A stretch of DNA of 64,000 nt, from the NCBI RefSeq assembly GCF_011927665.1, contig NZ_JAATJA010000004.1:62001-126000 (forward strand). Direction: 5' to 3'. A program made the translations under genes and the position numbers. The DNA is from Desulfobaculum xiamenense (lineage in GTDB: Bacteria > Desulfobacterota > Desulfovibrionia > Desulfovibrionales > Desulfovibrionaceae). Below, piece by piece: positions 2,593 through 19,307 of the stretch. The notes beneath the pieces are model-generated. The model was not told the DNA's origin. It worked only from the letters and a program-made list of their open reading frames with translations, and did no database searches. The stretch's first letter is position 1; every line of letters starts with the position of its first letter.

Positions 2593-3710
2593 CACACGCT
2601 TCGTCCTCGCCGACTGAATTCGTTCTCGTCTCCACTCAGCGCTCCGGAAGCGCCTTCGTCGCATCCATTCTGGACGCCCTGCCTGGGGCGAGCGTGGGGC
2701 CGGAGGTCTTTTTGGGCCTTGGCATGCATTCTCCGGAGAATTTCTACCGCTACTGGGCAGGCATGATCCGCGCCGACGAACGCTGCCTTGCGCCGCCGCG
2801 CTTCGCCGAGGTCATCGACGCCTATCTCGACGGATTCTACTCCCGTGCGGAGAGCGCATCCGCCGTTGGTTTTTGCCTCAAGTACGACCAGATTCCCCTT
2901 GTGCCCGGCCTGCTCGACGCCCTTGAGCGGCGCGGGGTGAAGGTTGTGCACCTCGTGCGGGAGAACGTGCTGGAGACGCTCGTCTCCTCGGTGCGCAGCC
3001 GCGAGCGCGTGGCCCATGGTGGCAGGGCGCATGGCGATGGCCCCCAGCCGCCGGAGCGGGTGCGCCTGCGGGCGCAGGGCCTGTGCGACGCCCTTGCCGG
3101 ACGCATCAGGGAGATCGGGGAGTGGCGGGAGACCCTGTCCCGGCGTTTCGAGTGCCACGAATTGACACTTGAGCGCGCCGTGTGCGGGCGTTCCGACGCC
3201 GGAAGCATGAATCCGAAGCCCCTGCGGGAGGTGTGCGCCTTTCTCGGTATCGAGGTCGGGGAGCGGCCGCCGCGTACGACCCTGCGCAGCAGTGCGGCGC
3301 GTCCCCTCGCGGAGTTGGTGGACAATGCCGATGAGATTCGCGCGGCCCTTTCCGGTACGGACTACGGGCATCTGCTCGACCCCTGCGGCACGCTGGCGCG
3401 GCCCGCGTTGCGTCCGGGGACGGATTTCGGTCAGTGGCACGCCATGTGCGCCAGCCTCAACAGGGCGGAGGCCATGCTTGCCGTCGGTCGCGGGCGCGAG
3501 GCCGCCGTGCTACTGAGCGGCGTGCGCAGAATGTATCCGGATGAGCCGGCTGCCGCCGTGGCCCTTGGCGCGGTGTACGAGCACACGGGCGATCTGGGCC
3601 GTAGCGCGAGCATGTACCGCATAGCCCTGCATCTGGACCCGTGGGACGCCATTGCCGCGTCGCGGTTGCGGGCGCTGACGCCGGGCAGTCTGGAGAACGC
3701 TTCATCGTGA
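2589..3710 (+). CDS. Stf0-like sulfotransferase with C-terminal TPR region
   Basis: 373 residues from the ATG overlapping the previous stop (ATGA). The N-terminus carries a PAPS 5'-phosphosulfate loop, STQRSGSAF (about residues 15-23), and a later 3'-phosphate-binding type segment, VHLVRENVLETLVSS (about 119-133). This is the layout of soluble bacterial sulfotransferases of the Stf0 group, which move sulfate from PAPS to a sugar or lipid hydroxyl. The last ~100 residues contain helical repeats ending in a clear TPR-like unit (AVALGAVYEHTGDLGRSASM). The overlap with the following glycosyltransferase (GTGA) supports a glycan substrate. Sulfotransferase assignment is good; the acceptor is unknown. 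Confidence 0.75.
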   Translation: MTHASSSPTEFVLVSTQRSGSAFVASILDALPGASVGPEVFLGLGMHSPENFYRYWAGMIRADERCLAPPRFAEVIDAYLDGFYSRAESASAVGFCLKYDQIPLVPGLLDALERRGVKVVHLVRENVLETLVSSVRSRERVAHGGRAHGDGPQPPERVRLRAQGLCDALAGRIREIGEWRETLSRRFECHELTLERAVCGRSDAGSMNPKPLREVCAFLGIEVGERPPRTTLRSSAARPLAELVDNADEIRAALSGTDYGHLLDPCGTLARPALRPGTDFGQWHAMCASLNRAEAMLAVGRGREAAVLLSGVRRMYPDEPAAAVALGAVYEHTGDLGRSASMYRIALHLDPWDAIAASRLRALTPGSLENASS

Positions 3711-4861
3711 GAATCCTGCTGATCAGCCACGAGCTGCCCCCGGTGGGGGGCGGCGGCGCAAACGCCACGGCCAACCTCGCCCGTGAGATGGCGCGGGGCG
3801 GGGACGCCGTTACCGTGCTCACCGGGCGCTTCCGGGGCCAGCCCGCGCGGGAGGAGCGCGACGGCTACGCCGTGGTCCGCGTTCCGGTCCTGCGGCGGCG
3901 CATGGACCGCTCTTCGCCGCCGGAGATGGCGACTTTCGCCCTGTCGGCGGGCCTGCGGGCGCTGGTGGGGCTGGAGCGCCCCGACGTTGCCGTGGCGTTC
4001 TTCGGGTTTCCGGCCGGTCCTGTGGCTGCGGTCCTGCGTGCGCTACGTGGAGTGCCCTATGTCGTGTCCCTGCGCGGGGGCGACGTGCCGGGGCATCAGC
4101 CCGCGCAGCTCGCCACGGCGCATCGGTTGTTGCGACCGGCACTCGTGAGGCTGTGGCGCTCTGCCGCGGCGGTGGTGGCACCGAGTCACGGGCTGGCCGC
4201 GCTGGCGCGGCGTAGCGCACCAGAGCTTGACGTGCATGTGGTGCCCAATGGCGTGTCCTGCGAGGTCTTCGCGCCGCCCGCCGTTTCGACCGACGAGGGC
4301 ACCGCGCTGCGTCTTCTCTACGCGGGACGGCTCGGCGCGGAGAAGGGCTTGGGCATCCTGCCGTCCGTCCTTGCGCGGCTCGACGGTCTGCCGTGGATTC
4401 TCGACATCGTGGGCGACGGTCCCGAGCGTGCGCGGTTGCGGACGGCCTTCGACGCCGCAGGGTTCGATGGCCGGGTGCGCTTTCGCGGCTGGCTTGGGCG
4501 CGAGGCCATGCCGGACGCCTACCGTGCGACGGATGTCTTTCTCTTTCCGTCGAGCGGGGAGGGCATGCCGAACACGGTTCTCGAAGCCATGGCCAGCGGG
4601 CTCCCCGTGGTGGCCGTGCGCGCAACGGGTACGGACGAGGTCGTCGTCGATGGCGAGACGGGATTTCTGTGCGACGCTGGCGACGCTATGGGCCTTGCCC
4701 GGTGTGTCGACGTCCTCGCTGCCGACCGGGGGCTGCGCCTTTGCATGGGACAGGCTGCACGCCAGCGCGCGGCAAGGGATTTCTCGTGGCGAAGAGGCGC
4801 CGAAACCTACGCTGAATTGTGCCGGGCCGCAGTCCGGGAAGCCTTGCCCCATATGGCCTGA
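3707..4861 (+). CDS. family 4-type glycosyltransferase (GT-B)
   Basis: 384 residues from a GTG overlapping the previous stop. The N-terminus (VRILLISHELPPVGGGGAN) is the glycine-rich opening of GT4 enzymes. The C-terminal domain has the classic donor-binding E-x7-E region: EGMPNTVLEAMASGLPVVA. The protein is full length for the family, has no membrane span, and acts in the cytosol at the membrane face, adding a sugar with retention of configuration. Donor and acceptor cannot be read from the sequence. The stop is followed by a 45-bp gap before the ATP-grasp gene. Confidence 0.88.
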   Translation: MRILLISHELPPVGGGGANATANLAREMARGGDAVTVLTGRFRGQPAREERDGYAVVRVPVLRRRMDRSSPPEMATFALSAGLRALVGLERPDVAVAFFGFPAGPVAAVLRALRGVPYVVSLRGGDVPGHQPAQLATAHRLLRPALVRLWRSAAAVVAPSHGLAALARRSAPELDVHVVPNGVSCEVFAPPAVSTDEGTALRLLYAGRLGAEKGLGILPSVLARLDGLPWILDIVGDGPERARLRTAFDAAGFDGRVRFRGWLGREAMPDAYRATDVFLFPSSGEGMPNTVLEAMASGLPVVAVRATGTDEVVVDGETGFLCDAGDAMGLARCVDVLAADRGLRLCMGQAARQRAARDFSWRRGAETYAELCRAAVREALPHMA

Positions 4862-4906: not shown

Positions 4907-5911
4907 ATGCGCGTACTCGTTCCCACCGCAGGACGCCGAAACATCCTTCTTGATGCCGTGCGGCGTTGTCCGCAGGTGACGCGGCTGGTCACCACCGAGG
5001 TGGACTTCACCGCGCCGGGAGTCGTCTCCGCCGACGTGTGCTACCGCGTGCCGCGCTCGGCCGATCCCGCCTACATCGCCGCGCTGGAGCGCATCATCCG
5101 GCGCGAGCGCATCTCCCATGTCCTCCCGCTGGCGGACCTCGACCTCGTGGGCCTTGCCGGATGCCGGGAGCGCTTCGCTGCGCTTGGCGCGGCGCTGGTG
5201 GCCGTGCCGGACGCGACCATCGACCTGTGCATGGACAAGTGGGCGAGCCACACCATGCTCGAAGGCCTTGGCGTTCCGGTTCCGCATACCGTGCGCCTCG
5301 ACGAGTTGCCGCCGGACGGCCATGGCGCGACGTATCCGGCCTGCCTCAAGCCGCGTCACGCCGGGATGAAGAACTCGCCGTGGTACTTCTTTGCGCGGCT
5401 TGCCGGGCCGCAGGACCTCGCGGCGCAGCGCACGCGCTGTGCCGGGCGCGAGGGGGACTACCTCGTGCAGGAGCACCTTGAGGGGCGCATGGAGATCAAC
5501 GTGGATTTCTTCGCCCGCGCGGGCAGCCTGCGGCGGTTGGTGACCCTGCACCGGCGGGGCTTCGGAGCCGGTGGCGGCATCACGCGCGGCACCACCATCC
5601 CCTGTGATCCGCGCATCAAGACCATGACCGAGACCATCGTGAGCGCGTTGCACTACGACGGACCGGGGAATTTTCAGGTCTGGCGCGACGACGCCGGCGG
5701 GCTTGCCGTCACCGAGATCAATCCGCGCTTTTCCAATTCCTCGGCGCTGGTCTGCATTCCCGCCGGGGAGAACTATTTCGAGCTGCTGTTTCGGATGCTT
5801 GGCGGGGAGGACGTGCCGCCACGCTTTGACGCCTACGAGCTCTTGACGGTGACCTGCGCCTACGCGCCGGTGGTGGTGCGGGAGGACGCGCTGGTCGATC
5901 CCTTTGCCTAG
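4907..5911 (+). CDS. ATP-grasp ligase-like protein in glycan cluster
   Basis: 334 residues, ATG 4907 behind GGAAGGAG. The opening MRVLVPTAGRRN, the YPACLKPRHAGMKNS lysine segment, the LVQEHLEG strand with its acidic end, and the late VTEINPRFSNSS magnesium motif are the ordered landmarks of the ATP-grasp fold (carbamoyl-phosphate-synthase/PylC-like branch). Such enzymes activate a carboxylate with ATP and couple it to an amine or thiol. In polysaccharide clusters they are thought to attach amino acids or small acids to sugars, but few are characterised. It neighbours an enolase-superfamily enzyme and a tandem flavoprotein, suggesting a shared small-molecule step. Confidence 0.8.
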   Translation: MRVLVPTAGRRNILLDAVRRCPQVTRLVTTEVDFTAPGVVSADVCYRVPRSADPAYIAALERIIRRERISHVLPLADLDLVGLAGCRERFAALGAALVAVPDATIDLCMDKWASHTMLEGLGVPVPHTVRLDELPPDGHGATYPACLKPRHAGMKNSPWYFFARLAGPQDLAAQRTRCAGREGDYLVQEHLEGRMEINVDFFARAGSLRRLVTLHRRGFGAGGGITRGTTIPCDPRIKTMTETIVSALHYDGPGNFQVWRDDAGGLAVTEINPRFSNSSALVCIPAGENYFELLFRMLGGEDVPPRFDAYELLTVTCAYAPVVVREDALVDPFA

Positions 5912-5921
5912 AGGAGTGCCC

Positions 5922-7415
5922 ATGAGGATTCTGGGATTGGCGGGAAGTCTGCGTGGGGCGCTGACGCCGGAACAGGCGGCGCTACTCGTCGCCGAGTTGC
6001 CCCTGTTGTCGGACCGCGAGGCGATGGCGGTGTGGCTGCGCGGACTGTCCGCACCGGGCGACGCCTCGACGGGAACGGTTCCTGACGGGCTGCGCGAGGC
6101 GTTGCGCACGGCTGGCGCGCGGGGGGTGAGCAATTCCGAGGCCGCGCTGGCCGCCGGATTGTGGGCCGCTGCCGACGTGGGCGCAGGGATGGGCGTGGAC
6201 GTGGGCTTTCGGTCGCTGGCGTGGCACTTTCGGCCCGATGGCACACGGCAGGACATGGACGCGCTTAAGGCCGATCTGCTGGCGGCGGATGCGCTGCTGG
6301 TGTCCGGCCCCGTGTATTTCGGCGACCGGGGGAGCCTTGTGCAGGAATTGGTGACGCTTCTTCGCGAGGACGACTACCTGCGCGAGGCGCTCGCCGGGTG
6401 CCTGTACGGCGGCATCGCCGTGGGTGCCAAGCGCAACGGCGGGCAGGAGACGGCGCTGGTCTATCAGGTGCTGGACATGGTGTCCCTCGGGCTTCTGGCC
6501 GTGGGCAACGATTCCGAGACGACGGCCCAGTATGGCGGCACGGTGCGCGCCGGAATGGTCGGCTCCGCGTGCGAGGACGACTACGGTTTGGATACGGCCA
6601 TGGGCACGGGGCGCAGGCTGGCGCGGCTACTCATGGGCATGGAGGTTGGCGGGCACATCGCAGGGCCAGTGCGCGTCGCCTTCGTCATCCTGCAGGATGC
6701 GCGCGGGCGCGGGCTGGAGGCCGCGCGGGGGCTGGCCGAAGCCTTCGCCGACGAGGTCGAGTCCGAGATCATCGACGTGACGGGGATGCGCCTCATGCGT
6801 TGCCGCGCCTGCGACGTGTGCCCGAGCACTATCGGCCCGGACGAGGACTACCGCTGTGCCCTCGCCGGGCGCGACGACTTTTCGGACCTTCACCGCAGGC
6901 TTCTCGATCACGACGCGCTGGTGCCGGTGATGGTTTCCGCGCGCGAACAGAGCGTGGTTCACAGCGCCTATCAGGTGTTCATGGAGCGCACGCGCTACCT
7001 GCGCCGGGGCGACTACGCGCTGTCGGACACCCTGCTTGCGCCCATGGCGCTTGTGGAGCCGGGGGCGGACGAGAATCTGCATGTGCGGGCCATCACCTCG
7101 CTCATTCGGCACCACATGGTGGTGGGGCGTCCGGTGACGGTCATGCTGCGGCAGGGGGAGCTTACCGAGTCAGGGGCCGATGTGCTGGCGCGATGGTTCA
7201 CCTGCGTGGTGCGCCGGGCGCGGCTGACGGGCGCGGCGCGTCTTGCCGTTGCATCGCGGCTGGAGGGCGTCGTCAGCTACAATCCCGTGGGGTATGTGCT
7301 GCCGTCCGCAGCCAATGGCAAGGCCGAGATGGACGCGCGTAGGCGGGCGGTGGAGGAGCGTTGCGAGCGCTTGCGGACCCTCGCCCGCACGCGGCTTGCC
7401 GGGGGCGATGCATGA
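5922..7415 (+). CDS. tandem flavodoxin-fold FMN reductase-like protein with CxxCxxC
   Basis: 497 residues from ATG 5922 (GAGGAG upstream). Two NADPH-dependent-FMN-reductase/flavodoxin-like halves are fused. The first starts MRILGLAGSLRG and carries ALLVSGPVYFGDRGSLVQ (about residues 124-141). The second starts near residue 248 (RVAFVILQDARGRG) and carries a CRACDVC motif (about 294-300), as in iron-sulfur flavoproteins and related quinone/FMN reductases, followed by ALVPVMVSAREQSVVHSAY. The Cys triplet could bind metal or be redox active; the spacing is not a proven cluster motif. A redox step on a sugar or amino-acid intermediate is possible. It ends in an ATGA overlap with the enolase-superfamily gene. 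Confidence 0.7.
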   Translation: MRILGLAGSLRGALTPEQAALLVAELPLLSDREAMAVWLRGLSAPGDASTGTVPDGLREALRTAGARGVSNSEAALAAGLWAAADVGAGMGVDVGFRSLAWHFRPDGTRQDMDALKADLLAADALLVSGPVYFGDRGSLVQELVTLLREDDYLREALAGCLYGGIAVGAKRNGGQETALVYQVLDMVSLGLLAVGNDSETTAQYGGTVRAGMVGSACEDDYGLDTAMGTGRRLARLLMGMEVGGHIAGPVRVAFVILQDARGRGLEAARGLAEAFADEVESEIIDVTGMRLMRCRACDVCPSTIGPDEDYRCALAGRDDFSDLHRRLLDHDALVPVMVSAREQSVVHSAYQVFMERTRYLRRGDYALSDTLLAPMALVEPGADENLHVRAITSLIRHHMVVGRPVTVMLRQGELTESGADVLARWFTCVVRRARLTGAARLAVASRLEGVVSYNPVGYVLPSAANGKAEMDARRRAVEERCERLRTLARTRLAGGDA

Positions 7416-8497
7416 GCGCGCGCATTGTGTCCGTACGCTGCGGCGTGGTGCGTCGCGCTTTGCGCCAGCCGTATCGGCTGTCCTTCGCCACGCTGTCGCA
7501 CGTGGACAGCGTATGGGTCGGCGTGGTGTTCGAGGACGGGCGCTGTGGCGTGGGCGAGGCCGTGCCGCTACCGGGCTATGGCGGCGGGACGCTCGACGAG
7601 GTGCGCGACGCCGTGCGCGGGCTGTGCGCGGGGCTGGTCGGCCACACGGCGCGGGACGCCTTGAGCGGCGCTGTCGGACAGGCCGCGAGGGGGCCGCTTG
7701 CCGTGTCGGCCGTGGCGTCGGCGTTGGAATTTCCGGACTTGGCCGGGCGGTGTGCGGCTATCCTGCGCGTGCCGCTGGTTTTTCCGCTTGATCCGGCGGA
7801 CGGAGGAAGTGCGGTCCTGTGCGCGATGGAGGATGCGCTGTCCGAGGGATTCACGGAATTCAAGATGAAGATCGGACGCGATCTCGCCTCGGATGTGGCG
7901 GCGGCGCTTCTTGCGTTGGAACGGGCCGCCGATGTCGGCGCGATGGTGCGCTTCGACGCCAATCAGGCCTATACGCGTGCCGAGGCGCAAACCTTCTGCG
8001 AGGCCGTGAACGGTGGCGCGAGCGAGGAACTGCGCTGGCTGGAGCAGCCCCTTGCCCGCGAGGACTGGGAGGGCACCGCGATGCTGTGCGCATCGACGCG
8101 GGTGCCGATCATGCTCGACGAACCGATCTACGCCGAGGAGGACGTGGACCGCGCCGCACGCGTCGGCGCTGCGGCGGTCAAGCTCAAGCTGTGCAAGCAT
8201 CCCGGTCCGCAGGCCTGCGTTGACCTCGCGCGGCGGGCGGTGGGGGCGGGCCTTGCGGTGACGCTTGGCAACGGCGTGTCCACGGACATCGGCAACATCT
8301 GCGAGGCCATGGTCGCGGCGGAGCTTGGGGACGCGCTGACCGGAGCGCTGGAGTGCAACGGCTTCGCGCGGCTCGCCGCGCCTGCGCTTTTTTCCGGCCT
8401 GCGCAGCGATCGTGGGTGCCTGGTTGCCGATGCGCCGCGTTTGGACGAGGCGAAACTCGATGCCTTGGCGCGGGAGTCGTCATGGTTGGCGGGATGA
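7412..8497 (+). CDS. enolase-superfamily enzyme (muconate cycloisomerase/dipeptide epimerase-like)
   Basis: 361 residues from the ATG in an ATGA overlap. All superfamily landmarks are visible in order: the KMK motif (residues about 151-153, catalytic Lys), RFDANQAY (first metal Asp), RWLEQPL (Glu), IMLDEPI (Asp), and VKLKL (opposite catalytic Lys). This two-lysine arrangement is that of the muconate-lactonising/L-Ala-D/L-Glu epimerase branch, which abstracts an alpha proton from a carboxylate. Residues for a specific dipeptide are not diagnostic here. Next to an ATP-grasp ligase it may epimerise an amino acid or small acid used to decorate the glycan; that is inference. Confidence 0.75.
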   Translation: MSARIVSVRCGVVRRALRQPYRLSFATLSHVDSVWVGVVFEDGRCGVGEAVPLPGYGGGTLDEVRDAVRGLCAGLVGHTARDALSGAVGQAARGPLAVSAVASALEFPDLAGRCAAILRVPLVFPLDPADGGSAVLCAMEDALSEGFTEFKMKIGRDLASDVAAALLALERAADVGAMVRFDANQAYTRAEAQTFCEAVNGGASEELRWLEQPLAREDWEGTAMLCASTRVPIMLDEPIYAEEDVDRAARVGAAAVKLKLCKHPGPQACVDLARRAVGAGLAVTLGNGVSTDIGNICEAMVAAELGDALTGALECNGFARLAAPALFSGLRSDRGCLVADAPRLDEAKLDALARESSWLAG

Positions 8498-9810
8498 GAG
8501 GCCCGGCGGACGGCTCTGCGCCGCTACGGGTGTTCATCGGTCTGCGCAACATCGCAGGCTATGCCGGGGCGCTGGCCGAAGGTGTCTCGCGCCTCGGGCA
8601 TCGGCCTACGGTGGTGGAGGTCTATCCCGAGCCGTACGGCTTCGCCGGGCGTAGGCATCCGCTGACCCGCGCCTTCGCGCGGTTGGCGCGCCTGCGGGAG
8701 GCGAGCGCGGCGCGGGCGTGGCGGGCCGTGGTGGAGGCCATGGTGCGCGGGCTTCTGGCGCTGTCCTTTGTCTGGGCGGCGGCCACGCACGACGTGTTCG
8801 TCATGTCCTTCGGTTCGTCCTTCTGCCCGCTGGGTAGCCGCGTGGATTGGCGGATTCTGCGCCGCCTCGGCCGTAGGGTGGTCTGCATGTGCCACGGCAG
8901 CGACGTGCGCCCGCCCTATCTCGACGGCTTCGCGTTGGCGGCCTCGCCCCAGGCGTTGGCCCGCGCCAGCCGCCGCACGGCCCGCGCCTGCGCGGCCATG
9001 GAGCGAAGCGCCCATGCCGTGATCTGCAATCCTGCGTTTTCGCAGTTTTTTTCTTGTGATCTCGTCAATGTCTTCCGGGTGGGCATTCCGGCGGACGACC
9101 GTGAACGGCCATGTCGCGTTGCGGATGGCACCCGTCCTGTGCTGCTGCATTGCCCCTCGGCTCCGCAGGGCAAGGGCACCGTGCGCATCCGCGAGATGGT
9201 GGAGCGCCTGCGTGGGCGAGGCGTCGATTTCGACTACCGCGAGCTGTCCGGTGTGCCCCACGCCGAGGTGCTCGCTGCGCTGGCTCGTGCGGATGTGGCC
9301 GTGGATCAGCTGTGGTCCGACACGCCGATGCCCGGTTTCGCCACCGAGGCCGCGCTGGCTGGCGTGCCCTGCGTGGTTGGCGGGGAGTTCGCCGCCGAGG
9401 CCTCGCGCTGGATGCCGGAGCGCGTGGCTCCGACCTCGGTCTACGTGCGGCCTGCCGAGGTGGAGGATGTCCTTTTCGAGCTTCTGACCTCGCCTCGGGC
9501 GCGCACCATCGCCGCCGAGCGCGCCCTGCGCCATGCCGAGACCTTTCGCCTGCCCGAGGCCGTGGCCCGGCGCGTGCTGCGGGTGGCCATGGGCGACGTG
9601 CCCGCCGAGTGGCTGTTTTCCCCGGCCGCAACGGGCAGGCCCTGTGGAGCCGGGCTTGCGCGCGAGGCCCTTGCCGCGAGGATCCGCGGGCTGGTGGAGA
9701 CCTGCGGCATGGACGCGCTAGGGCTTGCCGGAAAGCCCGCGCGGCTGGCGTGGATGCTGCGCGTTGCCGCGCAGGAGGGACGTTTTGTCAAATCCGGGGA
9801 GGACGCATGA
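8482..9810 (+). CDS. GT-B glycosyltransferase
   Basis: About 442 residues; ATG 8482 has GGGAG five bases upstream, while ATG 8494 would give the usual ATGA overlap, so the start is uncertain by four codons. The N-domain opens LRVFIGLRNIAGYAGALAEG. It contains CMCHGSDVRPPY, and the C-domain has AALARADVAVDQLWSDTPMPGFATEAALAGVPCVVG, the acceptor/donor Glu region of GT4-like enzymes. The protein is soluble and probably membrane-associated. An extra C-terminal ~90 residues are rich in helices with no recognised domain. Followed by an ATGA overlap. Confidence 0.78.
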   Translation: MVGGMRGPADGSAPLRVFIGLRNIAGYAGALAEGVSRLGHRPTVVEVYPEPYGFAGRRHPLTRAFARLARLREASAARAWRAVVEAMVRGLLALSFVWAAATHDVFVMSFGSSFCPLGSRVDWRILRRLGRRVVCMCHGSDVRPPYLDGFALAASPQALARASRRTARACAAMERSAHAVICNPAFSQFFSCDLVNVFRVGIPADDRERPCRVADGTRPVLLHCPSAPQGKGTVRIREMVERLRGRGVDFDYRELSGVPHAEVLAALARADVAVDQLWSDTPMPGFATEAALAGVPCVVGGEFAAEASRWMPERVAPTSVYVRPAEVEDVLFELLTSPRARTIAAERALRHAETFRLPEAVARRVLRVAMGDVPAEWLFSPAATGRPCGAGLAREALAARIRGLVETCGMDALGLAGKPARLAWMLRVAAQEGRFVKSGEDA

Positions 9811-12436: not shown

Positions 12437-13780
12437 ATGGGCGAGACGGCGATCCGCGTTCGCGGGCTGTCCAAGCGCTACCGGCTGGGCATGGCCGGAA
12501 CCGGCTGGCTCGGGCGTGATCTCCAGAGCTGGTGGGCGCGGGTTCGTGGGCGCGAGGATCCCAACGCCCCGCTGGGCGTGGATGGGCCGGCGCTCTCGCG
12601 TGGGCACGTGTGGGCGCTTCGCGATGTGGACCTCGACGTGCGGCGCGGCGAGGTGGTGGGCGTCATCGGGCGCAACGGCGCGGGCAAGTCCACGCTGCTC
12701 AAGATTCTCAACCGCATCACCCTGCCCACTGCGGGCGAGGCGCGGCTCAAGGGGCGCGTGGCCGGGCTTTTGGAGATCGGCACCGGCTTCCACCCCGAGC
12801 TGACCGGACGCGAGAACGTGTTTCTCAATGGTGCCATCCTCGGCATGACCCGTGCCCAGACCGTGAGCCGCTTCGCGGCCATTGAGGAGTTCTCGGAGGT
12901 CGGGGCGTTCATGGACACCCCGGTCAAGCGCTACTCCTCGGGCATGTACGTGAAGCTGGCCTTTGCCGTGGCCGCGCATCTGGATCCGGAAATCATGCTC
13001 GTGGACGAGGTGCTGGCCGTGGGCGACGCAGCCTTTCAGAAGAAGTGCCTTGGCCGCATGGGTGATGTGGCCGGGCAGGGGCGCACGGTGCTTTTCGTGA
13101 GTCACAACATGGCGTCCATCCGCAGCCTGTGCACGCGCTGCATCGTGCTGGAGGACGGGCGCGTGGGCTTCGACGGCGCGCCGGACGCGGCTGTGGACCG
13201 CTACCTCGGCCATGCGCCGAGTGACGCCGCCGTGCTCGACGGCCCTGCGCTGGCATCGCGCGTGGACGAATACCGCCCCGGCCCGGCCGCGCTTCGCGTG
13301 CTGCGGGTGGCGGTGTGCGACGATGCGGGAACACCCCGGCGGGATTTCCGCTCCGACGAGGAGGTCACCGTGGCCGTGGACTACCAGTGCCTGCGCGATC
13401 TGCACGACGTCCGCGTGATCCTGCAACTGACCGACGAGGGCGACGTGCCGCTGGTGGCGGCGGACAGTACGGACTTCCTGCCGCCGGACGCGGGGACGGC
13501 CCTTGGGCGGGGCACGTACCGGACCACGCTGCGGCTTCCCGCGCGGCTCTTCGGCGAACGGCGCTTCTTCGTCACGGTCAACGTCATGGCGCATGGGGTG
13601 CATCATCTGCCCGTGCGTCGCGCTCTCGATTTTGGCGTGTCGTATCAGGGCTTCGCTCCAGCCAACATCGCCGTGAGCCGCAGGGTGGCCGGGGCCGTGC
13701 GCCCCGCGCTACGCGTGTCCACCACGCGGCTTGATGGCACGGACAGGGAGGATGGACATGGCGGCGACGGTAACCCTTGA
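12437..13780 (+). CDS. wzt: polysaccharide ABC exporter ATPase with glycan-binding tail (Wzt-type)
   Basis: 447 residues from ATG 12437, GGGAGGGAG upstream. Walker A GRNGAGKS (78-85), signature YSSGMYVKLAF, Walker B IMLVDEVLAVGD, then the SHNMASI H-loop. After residue ~280 comes a long beta-rich extension (PGPAALRVLRVAV...VDYQCLRDLHDV...) matching the position and length of the Wzt C-terminal carbohydrate-binding domain, which in known O-antigen systems recognises a modified non-reducing end before export. A terminal methyl or other cap made by one of the nearby methyltransferases would fit. It overlaps neuB by 23 bp. Confidence 0.92.
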   Translation: MGETAIRVRGLSKRYRLGMAGTGWLGRDLQSWWARVRGREDPNAPLGVDGPALSRGHVWALRDVDLDVRRGEVVGVIGRNGAGKSTLLKILNRITLPTAGEARLKGRVAGLLEIGTGFHPELTGRENVFLNGAILGMTRAQTVSRFAAIEEFSEVGAFMDTPVKRYSSGMYVKLAFAVAAHLDPEIMLVDEVLAVGDAAFQKKCLGRMGDVAGQGRTVLFVSHNMASIRSLCTRCIVLEDGRVGFDGAPDAAVDRYLGHAPSDAAVLDGPALASRVDEYRPGPAALRVLRVAVCDDAGTPRRDFRSDEEVTVAVDYQCLRDLHDVRVILQLTDEGDVPLVAADSTDFLPPDAGTALGRGTYRTTLRLPARLFGERRFFVTVNVMAHGVHHLPVRRALDFGVSYQGFAPANIAVSRRVAGAVRPALRVSTTRLDGTDREDGHGGDGNP

Positions 13781-14810
13781 CGGAACGGACATCGGCACCG
13801 GACGGCGGGTGTATTTCATGGCCGAGGTGGCCGGGAATTTCGCTGGCGAGGAGGAGGCCGCGCGCATCGTGGATTCGGCCATGCGCGCCGGGGCCGACGC
13901 CGTGAAGTTCCAGACCCTCGATCCGGAGACCATCACCACGCGCGCGAACCGCTTCGACATGCCCTCGGTGGGCACGCGCCTGCAACGCGAGGTCTTCGCC
14001 GAGAGCCGCACCCCGCCAGAGGTGCAGGCCTTCCTCGTGGACTACTGCAAGCGCCGGGGCGTGACGGTCTTCTCCGCGCCGAGCCACGTGCGCGACCTCG
14101 AATTCATGGAGCGCCTCGACCTGCCCGCCTACAAGATCGGCTCGGACCTCGCGACGCACATTCCGCTCCTCGAAATCGTGGCCGACACGGGCAAGCCCAT
14201 CTTTCTGTCCACGGGCATGTGCACCATGGCCGAGGTGCGCGATTCCGTTGAGGCCATCCTCGCGCGGGGCAACGACCGGCTGCTGCTTTTCCACTGCGTG
14301 TCCAACTATCCCGCCGATCCGGCGGAGCAGAACCTACGGGCCATGGTGGCTATGAAGCGTGAATTCGGCCTGCCCACGGGGTTCTCGGACCACACCGTGG
14401 GCATCGATTGTGCCCGCGCCGCCGTGGCCCTCGGCGCGGACATGATCGAGCGTCACTACTGGTGCGAGGGCAATGCCGAAGGTTCGGATCGCGCCCTGTC
14501 GTCCGACGAGGCCGAGTTTCGGCGGCTGGTGGACTACGCCGCCCATGTGCTGCCAGCCTTCGGTGACGGCGTGAAGCGCCCCACCCCGGCCGAGGAGCGC
14601 AACATGCGCACCAACAAGGTGAGCCTCATCGTCATGCGCGACGTGGCGGCAGGGGATGTCCTCGACGAGACGATCCTCGACGTGCGCCGCCCCGGCACGG
14701 GCCTTGCCCCCAAGTGGTGGCGCTCGGCCCTCGGCAGGCGCGTCCTCGTGCCCATCGCGGCGGAGACGCCCCTGCGGCCGGAACACATTGGGCTGGAGGT
14801 GGAGCCATGA
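13758..14810 (+). CDS. neuB: nonulosonic acid synthase (NeuB/LegI/PseI family)
   Basis: 350 residues; ATG 13758 is chosen because AGGGAGG ends six bases before it (ATG 13752 would sit directly on the Shine-Dalgarno). Family landmarks: AEVAGNF, DAVKFQT (Lys50), AYKIGSDL, FLSTGMC, HCVSNYPA, FSDHTVG, and a C-terminal antifreeze-like SAF domain from about 285. The enzyme condenses phosphoenolpyruvate with a 6-carbon 2,4-diacetamido or N-acetyl hexose to give a nine-carbon sialic-acid-like sugar. Which sugar (legionaminic, pseudaminic, neuraminic) is not certain. Neighbours supply the activation and precursor steps. Confidence 0.9.
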   Translation: MAATVTLDGTDIGTGRRVYFMAEVAGNFAGEEEAARIVDSAMRAGADAVKFQTLDPETITTRANRFDMPSVGTRLQREVFAESRTPPEVQAFLVDYCKRRGVTVFSAPSHVRDLEFMERLDLPAYKIGSDLATHIPLLEIVADTGKPIFLSTGMCTMAEVRDSVEAILARGNDRLLLFHCVSNYPADPAEQNLRAMVAMKREFGLPTGFSDHTVGIDCARAAVALGADMIERHYWCEGNAEGSDRALSSDEAEFRRLVDYAAHVLPAFGDGVKRPTPAEERNMRTNKVSLIVMRDVAAGDVLDETILDVRRPGTGLAPKWWRSALGRRVLVPIAAETPLRPEHIGLEVEP

Positions 14811-15829
14811 CGCTTGTGCTTATTGCCGAGGGCCGAAGGGAAATCGGGCTTGGGCACGTGTTCGCGTGCATGGCGCTGGCCGGGGCCGGACGGGCTGCGG
14901 GGATGCCCACGCGGCTTCTGGGCATTGGCGATCTTGCCCTCGCCACCATGCGCCGCTTCGGGGACGCCGCCAACGCCTATGACGCCGACGAGGAAACCCT
15001 CGCGGCCATGGGCGGCGAGGGTCCGGACATCGCCGTGGTGGATGTGCGCCGTCCCGAGGAGTTCGATTTTGCGCCGCTTGCGCGGGCCGGGTATCTGACC
15101 TGCGCGTTGGAGGAGTTCGGGGAGGGGCGGCCCGAGGCGATGGTCATGGTCAATCCCGCGCCGGTGCGCGCGTGGCACCGTCTGCCCGATGGTTACCGCG
15201 CTGTGCTCTCTGGCCTGTCGTATCTTCCTGTGCGCCCCGAATATGCCGAGGTGCACGAGCGGGCACGCGCGCCCATGCCGCAGGCGCGGCGGGTGCTGGT
15301 GACCATGGGCGGGGTGGACCGCACCGGGGCCACGCTGGTCATGGCGCGTGCGCTTGGCCTCGTGCATGCCGAACGCCCGGAATTGGTGGGCGTGGCGCGT
15401 TTCGTGTGCGGGCCGGGCTTCACCTACGCCGCGTCCCTCGACAGGCTCCTCGCCGAGAGCGACCTCAATAGTGAAGTGCTCACCGACGTGCCGGACATGT
15501 GGGAACGGTTTTTCGAGGCGGACCTCGTGATTTCGGCCGGAGGGAACACGCTGTTCGAGGCCGCCTGCTGTGGTGCGCCTTCTGTGGTGTTCTGGGAGGA
15601 CCCGCACGAGCGCGAGCGCGGCGAGGCGGCCGAGGCCGCAGGCTTCGCGCGGTGTTTCGGACGTGGGCAGGACACCGCGCCCGTGGACGCGGCCCGCATT
15701 CTGGAGGACGTCCTCGACGACGGGACGTGGCTGGCGCAGGCCGGGGAGCGCGGCAGGCAGGCCGTGGACGGGCGCGGTGCGTCGCGCATCGTGTCCGCGT
15801 TGGTCGGGCTTTGCGGGGGGCGTGAATGA
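14807..15829 (+). CDS. PseG-like UDP-sugar hydrolase / GT-B protein of nonulosonic acid pathway
   Basis: 340 residues, ATGA overlap with neuB. The start LVLIAEGRREIGLGHVFAC contains GLGH with the His at position 17, as in PseG, which removes UDP from a 2,4-diacetamido-trideoxyhexose. The C-domain has the MurG-like AGGNTLFEAACCGAPSVV segment. It sits between the synthase and the cytidylyltransferase, exactly where the hydrolase step belongs. The overall sequence is divergent from textbook PseG, so a transferase role remains possible. Confidence 0.75.
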   Translation: MTLVLIAEGRREIGLGHVFACMALAGAGRAAGMPTRLLGIGDLALATMRRFGDAANAYDADEETLAAMGGEGPDIAVVDVRRPEEFDFAPLARAGYLTCALEEFGEGRPEAMVMVNPAPVRAWHRLPDGYRAVLSGLSYLPVRPEYAEVHERARAPMPQARRVLVTMGGVDRTGATLVMARALGLVHAERPELVGVARFVCGPGFTYAASLDRLLAESDLNSEVLTDVPDMWERFFEADLVISAGGNTLFEAACCGAPSVVFWEDPHERERGEAAEAAGFARCFGRGQDTAPVDAARILEDVLDDGTWLAQAGERGRQAVDGRGASRIVSALVGLCGGRE

Positions 15830-16536
15830 TTGAGCGGGCGGGCATCGTGCTTCAGGCGCGCATGGGCTCCTCGCGCCTGCCGGGAAAGGTGCTGGCCGAT
15901 CTGGGCGGTAGGTCGCTTCTGGCGCGGGTGCTCGACCGGCTGCGGCTGGTGCGCGGCGTGGCGGTCATCGTGGTCGCCGTTCCGGACACGCCGGAGAACG
16001 ACGTGCTGGCCGATGCGGCGCAGCGCCTATGCGCGGAGGTCTTTCGCGGGCCGGAGGACGACGTGCTCGAACGCATCCGGGGCGCGGCTGCGGCCTATGG
16101 CCTTTCGCGCGTGATGCGCGCCACCTGCGACAATCCGCTGGTGTGCTTCACGCTGGCCACGGACGTTCTGGCCATGCACGAGGCCGAGGGACTGGACTAC
16201 GCGTCCAACCGCAACGAGTCCGGCAGCGGCATTCCCGATGGCGCGGGGGTGGAGGTCTACTCCATGGAAACTCTTGAGCGCATAGGCCGCGAGGCGCGCC
16301 TGCCCGAGGACCGCGAGCACGTCAACGAGTACGTGTTTCGCAATCCGGGGCTTTTCGCCACGCGCATCATGAGCGTTCCGCGCGAGGTGCGCATGCCGGG
16401 GCTGCGGGTCACAGTGGATACGCCCGAGGACCTCGAACGCATGCGGGCCATCTATGCGGAATTCTCGTGGCACGCGGGGCCGGTGCCGCTCACGCTGGTG
16501 GTGGCCCGTGCGCGGGAGGGCGCGCCATGGGCCTAA
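15826..16536 (+). CDS. cytidylyltransferase-family protein (SpsF/CMP-nonulosonate synthetase-like)
   Basis: 236 residues; ATGA overlap. The opening IVLQARMGSSRLPGKVLADL is the CTP-binding loop of the SpsF/NeuA-like nucleotidyltransferases; VRGVAVIVVAVPDTPENDVLA, DDVLERI, TCDNPLV and VTVDTPEDLERM follow in family order. It would activate the nonulosonic acid to its CMP form, or act as the SpsF-type protein that accompanies PseG-like enzymes. Cytosolic. Overlaps the next gene by 10 bp. Confidence 0.82.
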   Translation: MIERAGIVLQARMGSSRLPGKVLADLGGRSLLARVLDRLRLVRGVAVIVVAVPDTPENDVLADAAQRLCAEVFRGPEDDVLERIRGAAAAYGLSRVMRATCDNPLVCFTLATDVLAMHEAEGLDYASNRNESGSGIPDGAGVEVYSMETLERIGREARLPEDREHVNEYVFRNPGLFATRIMSVPREVRMPGLRVTVDTPEDLERMRAIYAEFSWHAGPVPLTLVVARAREGAPWA

Positions 16537-17273
16537 GCGTGTCCATTCAGCAGCCCGAGCACGCGCCGTGGCTTGGCTTCTTCCACAAGATGGACCTGTG
16601 CGCGGTGACGGTGCTCTTCGACACCGTGCAGTACAAGAAGCGCTACTTCGAGAATCGCAACCGCATCCGCACCCGCGAGGGCTGGCAGTGGGTCACGGTG
16701 CCCGTGGTCAGCCGTGGGCGCTTCACCCAGCGCATCGCGGATGTGGACATCTGCGGCGATGCGACGTGGCGGCGCAAGTACCTCGGGGCCATCGCGCACA
16801 ACTATTGCGGAACTCCGTTCCATGACGAGATTTTTCCATCCGTCCGTGCTATCGTCGAAGCCGGACACGTCCGTCTGGCGGACCTGAACATCGCGCTCAT
16901 CGACTTCGTGCGGAACTATCTGGGCATGGGCGGGCGCATGGTGCGGGCCTCGGCCCTGCCCCATTTCGACTCGCACTCCACCGGACTTCTGCTCGACATC
17001 TGTCTCCATTTGAACGCCACGGACTACGTGTGCGGCGTTTCCGGGCCGGACTACATGGACATGGCCCTTTTCGACGCCGCGGGGGTGGCTGTGCGCGCCG
17101 TGCGCTACGAAAGCTCCCCCTACACGCAGGCCTTCCCGGGTTTCGAGCCGGGAATGTCCGTCCTTGATGCGCTGTTCAACCACGGCCCCGCGACGCTGGA
17201 CATCCTGCGGCACAACGCCGCCGACGCGCCGGGGCGGGAGGAGACGACATGCCCGAGTCCCCCCACCGGCTGA
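16527..17273 (+). CDS. WbqC-family protein
   Basis: 248 residues from ATG 16527 with GGGAGGG upstream. The start LSVSIQQPEHAPWLGFFHKM and the next DTVQYKKRYFENRNRIRT are the hallmark of WbqC-like proteins found in O-antigen and nonulosonic-acid clusters. Their reaction is not established; they are suggested to be acyl- or aminoacyl-transfer enzymes on nucleotide sugars. Full length for the family (about 230-250). The 25-bp overlap with the next gene suggests translational coupling. Confidence 0.85.
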   Translation: MGLSVSIQQPEHAPWLGFFHKMDLCAVTVLFDTVQYKKRYFENRNRIRTREGWQWVTVPVVSRGRFTQRIADVDICGDATWRRKYLGAIAHNYCGTPFHDEIFPSVRAIVEAGHVRLADLNIALIDFVRNYLGMGGRMVRASALPHFDSHSTGLLLDICLHLNATDYVCGVSGPDYMDMALFDAAGVAVRAVRYESSPYTQAFPGFEPGMSVLDALFNHGPATLDILRHNAADAPGREETTCPSPPTG

Positions 17274-18283
17274 CGAGCAAGGCGGAGCGCGACGTCAACG
17301 TCTGCTGCCAGTTCCTCGACTTCAACGAGACATGGGAGCGGGACATGGGGCCCGCGTTCATGGCCTACCGCCACGACTGGCAGCGCTACAGCGCCGCCCG
17401 CGAGCTGCGGCCCTTTCCCATGCACCTCGATTTCGACCTCACCAACACCTGCACGCTGCGCTGCACCTTCTGTCCGCGCACGCAGATGGCGCGACGCGGC
17501 ACCCTGCCGCCCGCCTTCACCATGCCCTTCGACGTCTACGCCGCCGCCATCGACGAGGGCGCGCAGAAGGGACTCTACGCCGTGAACCTCAACGCCAGCG
17601 GCGAGCCGCTGTTGCATCCGGACCTCGTGCGCATGGTGACCTACGCCCGCGAGAGCGGCATCCTCGACATCATGCTGCACACCTCGGGCCTGTTCCTCGA
17701 CGAGCCCATGGCGCAGCGGCTCATGGACGCGGGGCTGACCAAGCTCATCGTGTCCTTCGATTCGCCGGACAAGGCGCACTACGAGGCGCTTCGCGTCGGC
17801 TCCAGCTACGACCGCGTGGTGGCGAACATCCGCACGGCGGCGCGGCTTAAGCGGCAGGCCGGGTCCATCACGCCCTTCATACGCATCAACATGGTGCTCA
17901 TGCGCGAGAATGCCCACGAGCGCGAGGCCATGATCGACATGTGGCGCGACGTGGTCGATGGCATGGGTTTCCTCGAATACATCAACTACTACCAGTGGGA
18001 CGAGGAGGATCGCTACCGCCACCGCGTGGCCTACCGCGAGGACTTCGTGTGCGAGAAGCCGTGGCAGCGCCTCGCCGTCACGCACGACGGCGGCATCAAG
18101 TTCTGCCATTTGGACGACGCGGACGAGGTGGTGCTCGGCAACCTCTCGTCCATGAGCCTTGAGGAGGCGTGGACCGGCGAGGTCATGACCCGTTACCGCG
18201 AATTGCAGAAGGCCGGGCGCATCCGCGAGATCGGCCTGTGCTCGCGCTGCTCCACGCCGATGATGCCGGTGGAGGGGGACTGA
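17249..18283 (+). CDS. radical SAM/SPASM-type protein
   Basis: 344 residues. The 4Fe-4S SAM-binding motif CTLRCTFC lies at residues 68-75, preceded by LDFDLTNT, and the GEPLL segment follows. The C-terminal end has further cysteines (FCHLDD, CSRCS) as in SPASM-type auxiliary cluster domains. Such enzymes use a 5'-deoxyadenosyl radical to modify sugars or peptides; the substrate is unknown. A second, similar but not identical, radical SAM gene starts 1 bp after this stop, and WbqC precedes it, suggesting a joint step on an aminosugar side group. Confidence 0.85.
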   Translation: MPESPHRLTSKAERDVNVCCQFLDFNETWERDMGPAFMAYRHDWQRYSAARELRPFPMHLDFDLTNTCTLRCTFCPRTQMARRGTLPPAFTMPFDVYAAAIDEGAQKGLYAVNLNASGEPLLHPDLVRMVTYARESGILDIMLHTSGLFLDEPMAQRLMDAGLTKLIVSFDSPDKAHYEALRVGSSYDRVVANIRTAARLKRQAGSITPFIRINMVLMRENAHEREAMIDMWRDVVDGMGFLEYINYYQWDEEDRYRHRVAYREDFVCEKPWQRLAVTHDGGIKFCHLDDADEVVLGNLSSMSLEEAWTGEVMTRYRELQKAGRIREIGLCSRCSTPMMPVEGD

Positions 18284-18284
18284 C

Positions 18285-19307
18285 ATGGCCGAGGAATCCG
18301 GACGCAGCAACGTGGACCGCATCCGCGACCACAGCGCCCTCGACGACGTGGACGCCACCCTCGGCGAGATTCTCGGGGAGCGTTTCGTCGAGTATCGCCG
18401 CCGCTGGCGCATGGCGGAGCGCGAACTCGTGGAGTTCCCGTTCCCGCTGTTTCTGGTCATGGAAACGGTGAACACCTGCAACTACCGCTGCATCATGTGC
18501 TTTCGGCACTCCATGCCCGCGCCGAAACCCCGCGTCATGCCGGACGACCTCTTCGAGTCCGTCATGGCCGAGGCCGCGGCCCACGGCTGCCCATCCCTGT
18601 CCGTGAACTGGAACAACGAGCCGCTCATGGACCCGAACCTTGTGCGCCGCGTGGCCCGCGCCCGAGAGAGCGGATTTGTGGACGTGCGCCTCAACACCAA
18701 CGCGAGCCTTCTCGACGGGGAACGCTCGCGCGGGCTGGTGCGGGCGGGGCTGACGCGGCTTTCGGTGAGCCTCGACGCCGCCACGCGTGAGACCTACGAG
18801 GCTGTGCGCGTGGGCGGTAACTGGGACCGCGTGATGGGCAACATCGAACAATTTCTGCGAATCCGGAAGGAACTCGGCGCGCGTCTGCCCCTTTTGCGTG
18901 TGACCTTTGTGCGCATCCGCGAGAACGCCCACGAGGTCGACGACTTCGTGCGGCGCTGGAAGGGCGTGGCGGACTACGTGTCCATCCAGAGCTACGTGCC
19001 GCACATTCCCGGCGAACGGGCCATGGCCCTGCACCCGGACGTACGCTCGCACATGGCGGACATCACCTGCTCCCAGCCTTTCGAGCGGCTGGTGGTGGGC
19101 GTGGATGGCGACGTCTATCCCTGCTGTTCTCCCGTGGGTACCGAAATCCACCTTGGCAACGTGCGTGAGACGCCACTGGCCGAGATATGGCGGGGGGCCA
19201 TGTCTCGGCGGCTGCGCACGATGATGCGCGAACGCACGTGGGACGGCTTCGACGTCTGCCGCCGCTGCCTGACCGGCACCTTCGGCGCGCCGGGGGAGGG
19301 CGCATGA
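18285..19307 (+). CDS. radical SAM/SPASM-type protein
   Basis: 340 residues. CNYRCIMC at 65-72, preceded by ETVNT; NNEPLMDP corresponds to the GGE-like SAM contact; C-terminal CSQPF, YPCCSPV and CRRC are the SPASM-type ligands for an auxiliary cluster. It is related in layout to the preceding protein but clearly diverged, so this is a pair rather than a recent duplicate. Ends in an ATGA overlap with a methyltransferase gene. Confidence 0.85.
   Translation: MAEESGRSNVDRIRDHSALDDVDATLGEILGERFVEYRRRWRMAERELVEFPFPLFLVMETVNTCNYRCIMCFRHSMPAPKPRVMPDDLFESVMAEAAAHGCPSLSVNWNNEPLMDPNLVRRVARARESGFVDVRLNTNASLLDGERSRGLVRAGLTRLSVSLDAATRETYEAVRVGGNWDRVMGNIEQFLRIRKELGARLPLLRVTFVRIRENAHEVDDFVRRWKGVADYVSIQSYVPHIPGERAMALHPDVRSHMADITCSQPFERLVVGVDGDVYPCCSPVGTEIHLGNVRETPLAEIWRGAMSRRLRTMMRERTWDGFDVCRRCLTGTFGAPGEGA

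Follow-up and report, generated by a model that had tools for sequence, protein, structure and literature searches.

This report concerns a 64,000-nucleotide stretch of the Desulfobaculum xiamenense genome (contig NZ_JAATJA010000004.1, positions 62,001 to 126,000), hereafter the window, and an operon-like run of three contiguous plus-strand genes within it that encode an ATP-grasp ligase, a two-domain redox protein (Flav) and an enolase-superfamily enzyme (Enol). A preliminary description of the sequence had pointed to three overlapping or near-contiguous genes of these types, and all three are present where it placed them, with the stop codon of Flav (7413–7415) overlapping the ATG of Enol (7412–7414) as ATGA:

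4907–5911, + strand: ATP-grasp ligase, PRK12767/PylC-like (Pfam and NCBIfam matches), proposed to join an acid to an amine
5911–5916, + strand: GAGGAG, likely ribosome-binding site of Flav by sequence, 5′ of the Flav ATG at 5922
5922–7415, + strand: Flav, a WrbA-like domain (residues ~1–243) fused to an Isf/flavone-reductase-like domain (profiles, alignments and AlphaFold2 model)
7412–8497, + strand: Enol, an enolase-superfamily enzyme of the MLE subgroup (Pfam, invariant residues and fold)

Searching for Flav beyond the window demonstrates that this trio is real and recurrent. A profile built from three Flavs (that of the window and two relatives), combined with two peptide patterns and tblastn confirmation, was run against a collection of genomes from 84,980 species and returned 74 loci, i.e. 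75 with the window. Two records, L029 and L030, are identical to L067 and L063 and are excluded from all counts; the near copies L097 and L099 are both counted. The loci come from Pseudomonadota, Thermodesulfobacteriota, Planctomycetota, Bacteroidota, Nitrospinota, Nitrospirota, Verrucomicrobiota, Acidobacteriota, Spirochaetota, Myxococcota, Bdellovibrionota and Elusimicrobiota, among others, and Enol lies near Flav in 37 of the 75. Using a cleaned ATP-grasp profile, an ATP-grasp gene was found within 6 kb in 34 of these 37 loci versus two of the 38 loci lacking Enol (Fisher p 1.8e-15), a value that overstates independence because the loci are related and the type label—type I for Flav with ATP-grasp and Enol, as in the window, type II for Flav without Enol—changes only twice on the Flav tree. 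Rather than never being found together elsewhere, an outcome the preliminary description had allowed for, the three genes keep company in 34 of the 75 Flav loci and, going by record titles and ranks, in ten named phyla. They do so in all six possible orders (with A for ATP-grasp, E for Enol and F for Flav, and variants counted: AEF 12, AFE 9, FEA 8, FAE 2, EFA 2, EAF 1), and these rearranged gene orders carry as much of the argument for linkage as the p value does.

Some of the few exceptions probably stem from assembly. In the two loci that have an ATP-grasp but no Enol (L034 and L101), an Enol orthologue (E 1.2e-96 and 6.3e-96) is found on another contig, starting 125 and 116 bases from the contig end. 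Flav itself runs up to a contig end in L101 and is 2.6 kb away from one in L034, which makes assembly breaks likely. Conversely, an ATP-grasp is missing from three loci with Enol, namely L039 (on a 9.3 kb contig), L049 and L056, the last of which carries an AMP-ligase beside Enol and Flav. Among 198 relative genomes, a strong Flav match (E 1e-100 or better) occurs in just three, the window genome included, with weak matches only in 25 more; in both of the other strong cases (L029 and L030), Enol adjoins Flav and ATP-grasps are close by. Carriage on known mobile elements was considered and discarded, as Flav was not found in known plasmids (E 1e-10) or phages (E 1e-5). A description of the trio was likewise not found in the literature searched, whose open-access coverage is incomplete, meaning that one may exist elsewhere.

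All three proteins fall below every NCBIfam cut-off, and assignment to a standard sugar pathway or to a named enzyme was therefore rejected. Flav matches the Pfam family FMN_red (3.2e-10, in two stretches), and its AlphaFold2 model has a mean pLDDT of 91.3 and a pTM of 0.92. Residues 1–243 take up a WrbA/PnpB-like fold (Z 19.8, rmsd 2.0, 167 aligned); most rows of the fold search span this part, so that the second domain was barely probed by fold. Domain 1 shares both its fold and a GGQET motif with the NAD(P)H:quinone oxidoreductases WrbA and PnpB but differs from them by an insertion after the first strand, as seen in the alignment, and by the presence of a second domain, and the WrbA-type NCBIfam cut-offs are missed by a wide margin (TIGR01755, 12.7 vs 132.5 bits; PRK03767, 16 vs 141 bits).

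The second half of Flav aligns with the flavone reductase FLR (7d38; E 6.4e-4 for the whole sequence, 0.0014 for the stretch), with which Flav shares the flavodoxin fold and an identically spaced cysteine motif, C294-x2-C297-x2-C300-x11-C312, that is invariant in all 46 aligned Flavs and makes a [4Fe-4S] cluster probable. Iron-sulfur flavoproteins, also of flavodoxin fold, rank with FLR among the closest known proteins. What sets Flav apart from FLR is the WrbA-like domain in front and a set of conserved motifs of its own (YQxFxERTRYxRRGDY, IRHH and YNPVGYVL). FLR is described as an FMN-dependent ene-reductase that was unable to use NAD(P)H directly (PMC7862272), for which reason a fused WrbA-like domain could serve to feed in electrons.

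Enol belongs to the MLE subgroup as judged from sequence and predicted fold. It matches the Pfam families MR_MLE_C (5.9e-26) and MR_MLE_N, and its AlphaFold2 model (mean pLDDT 95.3) comprises a capping domain and a barrel that superimpose on 3dgb with Z 39.1 and rmsd 2.7 over 348 aligned residues. Across 37 aligned Enols, which share 25–47% identity with the window member, the residues K150, K152, D181, N183, E210, D235, E236, K256, K258 and K261 are invariant, as are a GNGV motif, E297 and E313, and six of them (K150, K152, D181, E210, D235 and K258) line up with equivalent residues of 1jpm and 2p88. Among proteins of solved structure, the Enol profile comes closest to an N-succinyl-Arg/Lys racemase (7.6e-45) and an L-Ala-D/L-Glu epimerase (5.1e-41). 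Yet the window Enol misses the NCBIfam cut-offs for dipeptide epimerases, N-succinylamino acid racemases (NSAR), o-succinylbenzoate synthases (OSBS) and MLE (best 77.6 vs 334.95 bits; nearest approach to any cut-off, TIGR01927 with 67.2 vs 130.55 bits). Together with the mostly glycan-type neighbours in trio loci, these scores led us to dismiss a role in menaquinone synthesis (OSBS) or cell-wall recycling.

Compared with MLE-subgroup enolases in general (N-succinyl-Arg/Lys racemase, dipeptide epimerases, muconate cycloisomerase and OSBS), Enol retains the KxK and K lysines, the metal ligands and the fold (Z ~39) but has E-x-N-G at strand 8, GNGV at strand 7 and YxL[SA][FY] in the 20s loop. Dipeptide epimerases carry a DxD motif at the end of strand 8; in the corresponding column, 33 of 37 Enols have E-x-N, with the printed 1jpm alignment stopping before that motif. 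A two-lysine site suits racemisation, beta-elimination and cycloisomerisation alike. The conserved residues support abstraction of an alpha-proton and do not choose among racemisation, elimination and cyclisation. Two details of the preliminary description can be amended here: the CxxCxxC triplet it noted in Flav is present but lacks the fourth cysteine, and of its two-lysine enolase-superfamily epimerase, the superfamily and the lysines (K150-x-K152 and K258) hold up, while the word epimerase is an interpretation that goes beyond the sequence.

The third member, the ATP-grasp protein, matches the Pfam families PylC-like_N (6.5e-14) and ATPgrasp_Ter (6.1e-10) and, below cut-off, PRK12767-type ‘carbamoyl phosphate synthase-like’ models (best 1.2e-39). 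Among 20 aligned proteins, K111 and N272 are invariant and E270 is kept in at least 90%, which points to a carboxylate-amine ligase with a conserved lysine and a Glu/Asn metal site that is predicted to form an amide. An N domain and an ATP-grasp core are shared with PylC and the PRK12767-type ligases; the difference lies in the divergence of the group, as 19 ligases from trio loci or trio genomes are only 16–23% identical to that of the window. This divergence is also apparent when the three proteins are compared with each other across 28 of the 34 trio loci (L044, L045, L047, L054, L063 and L097 were left out): the median identity is 18.6% for the ATP-grasp, 29.2% for Enol and 40.9% for Flav, and ATP-grasp distances do not follow those of Flav or Enol (rho -0.06 and -0.04), whereas the latter two follow each other weakly (rho 0.22). 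Such a pattern fits one acid with differing acceptors, or repeated recruitment of ligases. An additional family of approximately 275 amino acids is encoded in eight trio-type loci (L037, L043, L051, L057, L060, L064, L067 and L088); it is related to part of the ATP-grasps by hhalign (probability 92%), and its member at L067:11556-12377 has no Pfam match at 0.01.

Where Enol is missing, Flav is accompanied by a different set of partners. Type II loci frequently encode an AMP-forming ligase (22 of 38 loci without Enol vs two of 37 with it), a DltB-like membrane-bound O-acyltransferase (MBOAT; 17 of 38 vs none of 37) and a carrier protein (26 of 38 vs one of 37), the carrier being found in each of the 17 MBOAT loci and 21 of the 22 ligase loci. 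An adenylating ligase is found in 15 of the 17 MBOAT loci. In L069, for instance, Flav is followed by carrier, ligase, a DltD/SGNH-like protein and MBOAT, with the carrier and the MBOAT matching DltC (2e-6; 27.7 vs 68 bits) and DltB (6.9e-33; 114.4 vs 375 bits) below cut-off; the DltD/SGNH-like proteins were named by eye, and none of the four that were scanned had a Pfam match. In L073, ligase and carrier are instead found with an AAC(3)-like protein (Antibiotic_NAT, 4e-29), whose protein cluster also has members in L076 and L083. Flav is the constant element in both types of loci, paired with either of two acid-activating machineries.

As for the substrate of the type II ligases, the lack of a clear FDxS motif at the A4 position would, by adenylation rules, speak against an alpha-amino acid. 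Among the 22 type II ligases, the A3 motif is readable in 20, and in 19 of these the 75 residues that follow it contain no FDxS; L078 has an FDKS and L070 a TDLS, both off the A4 place as judged by eye. Pointing the other way, the L106 ligase has a gramicidin-synthetase adenylation domain as its closest relative of known structure (1.5e-51), and the L073 and L106 ligases match an amino-acid adenylation model below cut-off. The resemblance to the Dlt pathway, in which DltA, DltC, DltB and DltD bring about D-alanylation of teichoic acids, extends to the AMP-ligase, the DltC-like carrier and the DltB-like MBOAT of many type II loci. Differences are that the window has type I and that type II adds Flav, has ligases without a clear FDxS and occurs, by record titles, mostly in Gram-negative hosts. 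A 2025 paper states that, Dlt aside, MBOAT/SGNH pathways have no carrier protein (PMC12148441), to which type II would be an exception. Three loci in particular (L069:3557-9719, L106:8499-16123 and L102:9689-14180) resemble carrier-dependent MBOAT acylation systems.

A hint at the nature of the acid comes from relatives of Enol that occur without Flav. Among 395 genomes of the phylum, the Enol family is present at E 1e-40 or better in 16 and reaches at least 292 bits in 11, while Flav at the same threshold is found in only three, all of them among these 11. With eight of the 11 best-Enol genomes lacking Flav, Enol was ruled out as a specific marker of the module. The corresponding eight loci (L124–L131) have a catabolic appearance: seven of them lie beside genes for TctA (L124 and L129), DctM (L125) or DctP (L126) transporters and/or GlmE homologues; in the remaining one, L131, an MFS transporter accompanies a partial GlmE homologue. 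Counting the latter, GlmE homologues adjoin Enol in five of the eight (L127–L131), homologues of GlmL and GlmS occur in L128, L129 and L130, and LUD-domain genes in L125, L127, L128 and L130. GlmS scores above cut-off in six of the eight genomes and lies on the Enol-bearing contig in G360, G383 and G246; in G216, it shares a contig with a second, 225-bit Enol.

The classical glutamate mutase/methylaspartate operon has the order glmS-glmL-glmE-mal, and methylaspartate ammonia-lyase is itself a member of the enolase superfamily. A canonical methylaspartate ammonia-lyase scores above cut-off in none of the eight genomes. The likeness to this operon lies in the GlmE homologues beside Enol; the difference is that a search of the 75 Flav loci for homologues of GlmS, GlmL, GlmE and LUD gave no match (E 1e-10), and for this reason the glutamate-mutase hint does not transfer directly. 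Furthermore, nine of ten catabolic rows form one group inside the trio Enols on the Enol tree (support 92, unstarred), and the Y-x-L-[SA]-[FY] 20s loop is seen in 38 of 38 readable trio rows versus none of the ten catabolic ones. The settings of these cousins hint at an aspartate-like or dicarboxylic substrate, a lead rather than a result. Seen on their own, L130:3267-8861 reads glmS-glmL-glmE-LUD-Enol, L128:3107-9644 repeats this order with an IS630 transposase separating glmS from glmL, L129:121-6126 is a run of the L130 type without LUD, and L127:275-3510 also places an Enol cousin by a glutamate-mutase gene; this arrangement is possibly an alternative glutamate catabolic route.

The surroundings of the trio bear on what the acid might be attached to. 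In the window, the following neighbours were recognised, the two glycosyltransferases being outside the core:

3641–4861, + strand: GT4 glycosyltransferase, upstream (Glyco_trans_1_4, 3.6e-32)
8533–9810, + strand: possible glycosyltransferase, downstream (Glyco_transf_4, 0.003, below cut-off)
13731–16536, + strand: nonulosonic-acid genes, i.e. NeuB/PseI-like, PseG-like and CMP-sugar synthetase (family matches; PseG-like below cut-off)

The polysaccharide cluster that had been claimed as the setting is borne out by these glycosyltransferase and NeuB matches together with a Wzt-type ABC ATPase, a cytidylyltransferase, WbqC and PIG-L around the trio; a methyltransferase fusion is also encoded. 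From its gene content, the setting is probably that of an exported surface glycan, and the nonulosonic-acid genes may be the source of an amine acceptor. Two adjoining radical SAM/SPASM-like genes (17249–19307; the first recognised by Pfam, the second by eye) lie in the nonulosonic-acid part. In trio loci more broadly, the neighbours belong largely to glycan-type families, according to a rough Pfam survey that relies on mechanical longest-ORF calls (126 of 131 type I and 123 of 130 type II open reading frames included).

Taken in general terms, tailoring of an acid and its attachment to a surface glycan is the likely role of the trio. The preliminary description had suggested that an acid is made and joined to a sugar, which the glycan setting and the second acid-activating machinery elsewhere favour; on its narrower wording, an amino acid or peptide-like acid, the data point both ways. 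We propose more specifically, with a probability of about 0.48, that the trio prepares one small carboxylic acid and attaches it as an amide to a glycan building block in the following steps. Because two unrelated acid-activating machineries serve one redox enzyme, the acid would be the common product. In Flav, NAD(P)H would donate electrons to the WrbA-like FMN domain, from where they would move through the four-cysteine cluster of domain 2 to reduce an unsaturated (enoate-type) acid or a precursor of it, much as C=C bonds are reduced by the related flavone reductase. Relying on Mg2+ and two lysines, Enol would abstract the alpha-proton of the acid—which may be dicarboxylic or aspartate-like—and either epimerise the product of Flav or create, by beta-elimination, the double bond on which Flav acts. 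The ATP-grasp would then activate the carboxylate as an acyl-phosphate and couple it to an amine, in the window probably an amino group on the exported glycan's nonulosonic acid or on another of its amino sugars. The ordering of the median identities from Flav through Enol to ATP-grasp fits a fixed acid with variable acceptors, and ATP-grasp diversity would mirror the differing acceptors.

Several observations weigh against this proposal. Gene neighbourhood is what would tie the trio to a glycan, and around the alphaproteobacterial Flavs of L038, L055 and L058, whose genomes have no Enol above 130 bits, glycan genes were not recognised by eye. Enol is absent from type II, so it is not always needed, and in the Flav-less genomes its substrate may differ; the missing glm and LUD homologues in Flav loci count here as well. 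With only two changes of the type label on the Flav tree, five independent pairs remain, too small a number to reach significance (median p 0.25). Regarding the chemistry of Flav, the usual FMN phosphate loop was not seen in the alignment of domain 2, leaving FMN binding by this domain uncertain, and the available text on flavone reductase contains no mention of iron-sulfur, Fe-S or cysteine (PMC7862272).

These weaknesses leave room for other explanations. The trio might make and attach an amino acid or dipeptide, with the ATP-grasp forming a peptide or aminoacyl amide, Enol epimerising the alpha-carbon by dipeptide-epimerase or N-acylamino-acid-racemase chemistry and Flav oxidising or reducing the residue. 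The closest solved relatives of the Enol profile, the PylC-like N domain of the ATP-grasp and the adenylation-domain resemblances of the L106 and L073 ligases all lean this way, as does a synthetic pathway in which an ATP-grasp was combined with an enolase-family dipeptide epimerase to make L-Cys-D-Val (PMC13338154). We nonetheless consider it somewhat unlikely: the strand 8 motif reads E-x-N rather than DxD in most Enols (with the 1jpm alignment ending short of it), 19 of the 20 readable type II ligases lack FDxS and the two near matches in L078 and L070 are misplaced, type II does without Enol, and the Enol cousins sit with glutamate-mutase genes. Alternatively, an elimination could be followed by a reduction. 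Here Enol would act on an aspartate- or malate-like acid, releasing ammonia or water, and Flav would reduce the fumarate- or mesaconate-type enoate so formed, leaving a succinyl- or methylsuccinyl-like group to be attached. The GlmE homologues of L127–L131 in genomes without an above-cut-off methylaspartate ammonia-lyase would agree with such an eliminase, and the domain 2 motif of Flav matches that of a C=C reductase. However, type II again lacks Enol, glm and LUD homologues were not found in Flav loci, the 20s loop separates trio from catabolic rows so that their substrates may differ, and ordinary enzymes could supply succinate; we regard this scheme as distinctly unlikely.

Lastly, the three genes could be independent passengers of variable glycan clusters that met by chance, given that ATP-grasps and reductases are common there. 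Fast-diverging ATP-grasps whose distances do not track those of Flav or Enol, the catabolic settings of some Enols and the small number of type changes on the Flav tree count in favour of this scenario. Set against them are the concentration of ATP-grasps in loci with Enol (34 of 37 vs 2 of 38), the six gene orders, the ATGA coupling in the window and the different but constant partner set in the other Flav loci, and we regard chance association as highly improbable.

Going beyond the window, the proposed amide route can be extended into a bolder and tentative idea, namely that Flav founds a family of two-domain FMN/[4Fe-4S] reductases making an as yet unseen glycan-decorating acid. In at least ten phyla, this acid would be delivered by interchangeable routes: cytosolic amidation via Enol and ATP-grasp, or loading onto a carrier, from which the acid would pass on either through export acylation by an MBOAT, which would then be the second MBOAT pathway after Dlt to depend on a carrier, or through N-acylation by an AAC(3)-like protein. 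Decorating glycans with acyl or aminoacyl groups is a known kind of modification, and this module would be a variant of it that includes the redox enzyme family Flav.

Non-sugar substituents help to set how bacterial surfaces are recognised by phages, hosts and grazers, and to our knowledge the enzymes making unusual glycan substituents are mostly still to be discovered. A module this widespread, in which the redox enzyme stays the same while the attachment machinery is exchanged, puts the missing acid within reach. Trio ligases would offer new acid-amine ligases for synthesis, and with the type II form, carrier-dependent acylation outside the cell would no longer be confined to D-alanine. As a further observation, the trio loci L046, L053 and L063 share an extra amino-acid-type AMP-ligase (FDLS), and their additional clusters comprise, by eye, formyltransferase-like, AAC(3)-like and DUF4910-like proteins.

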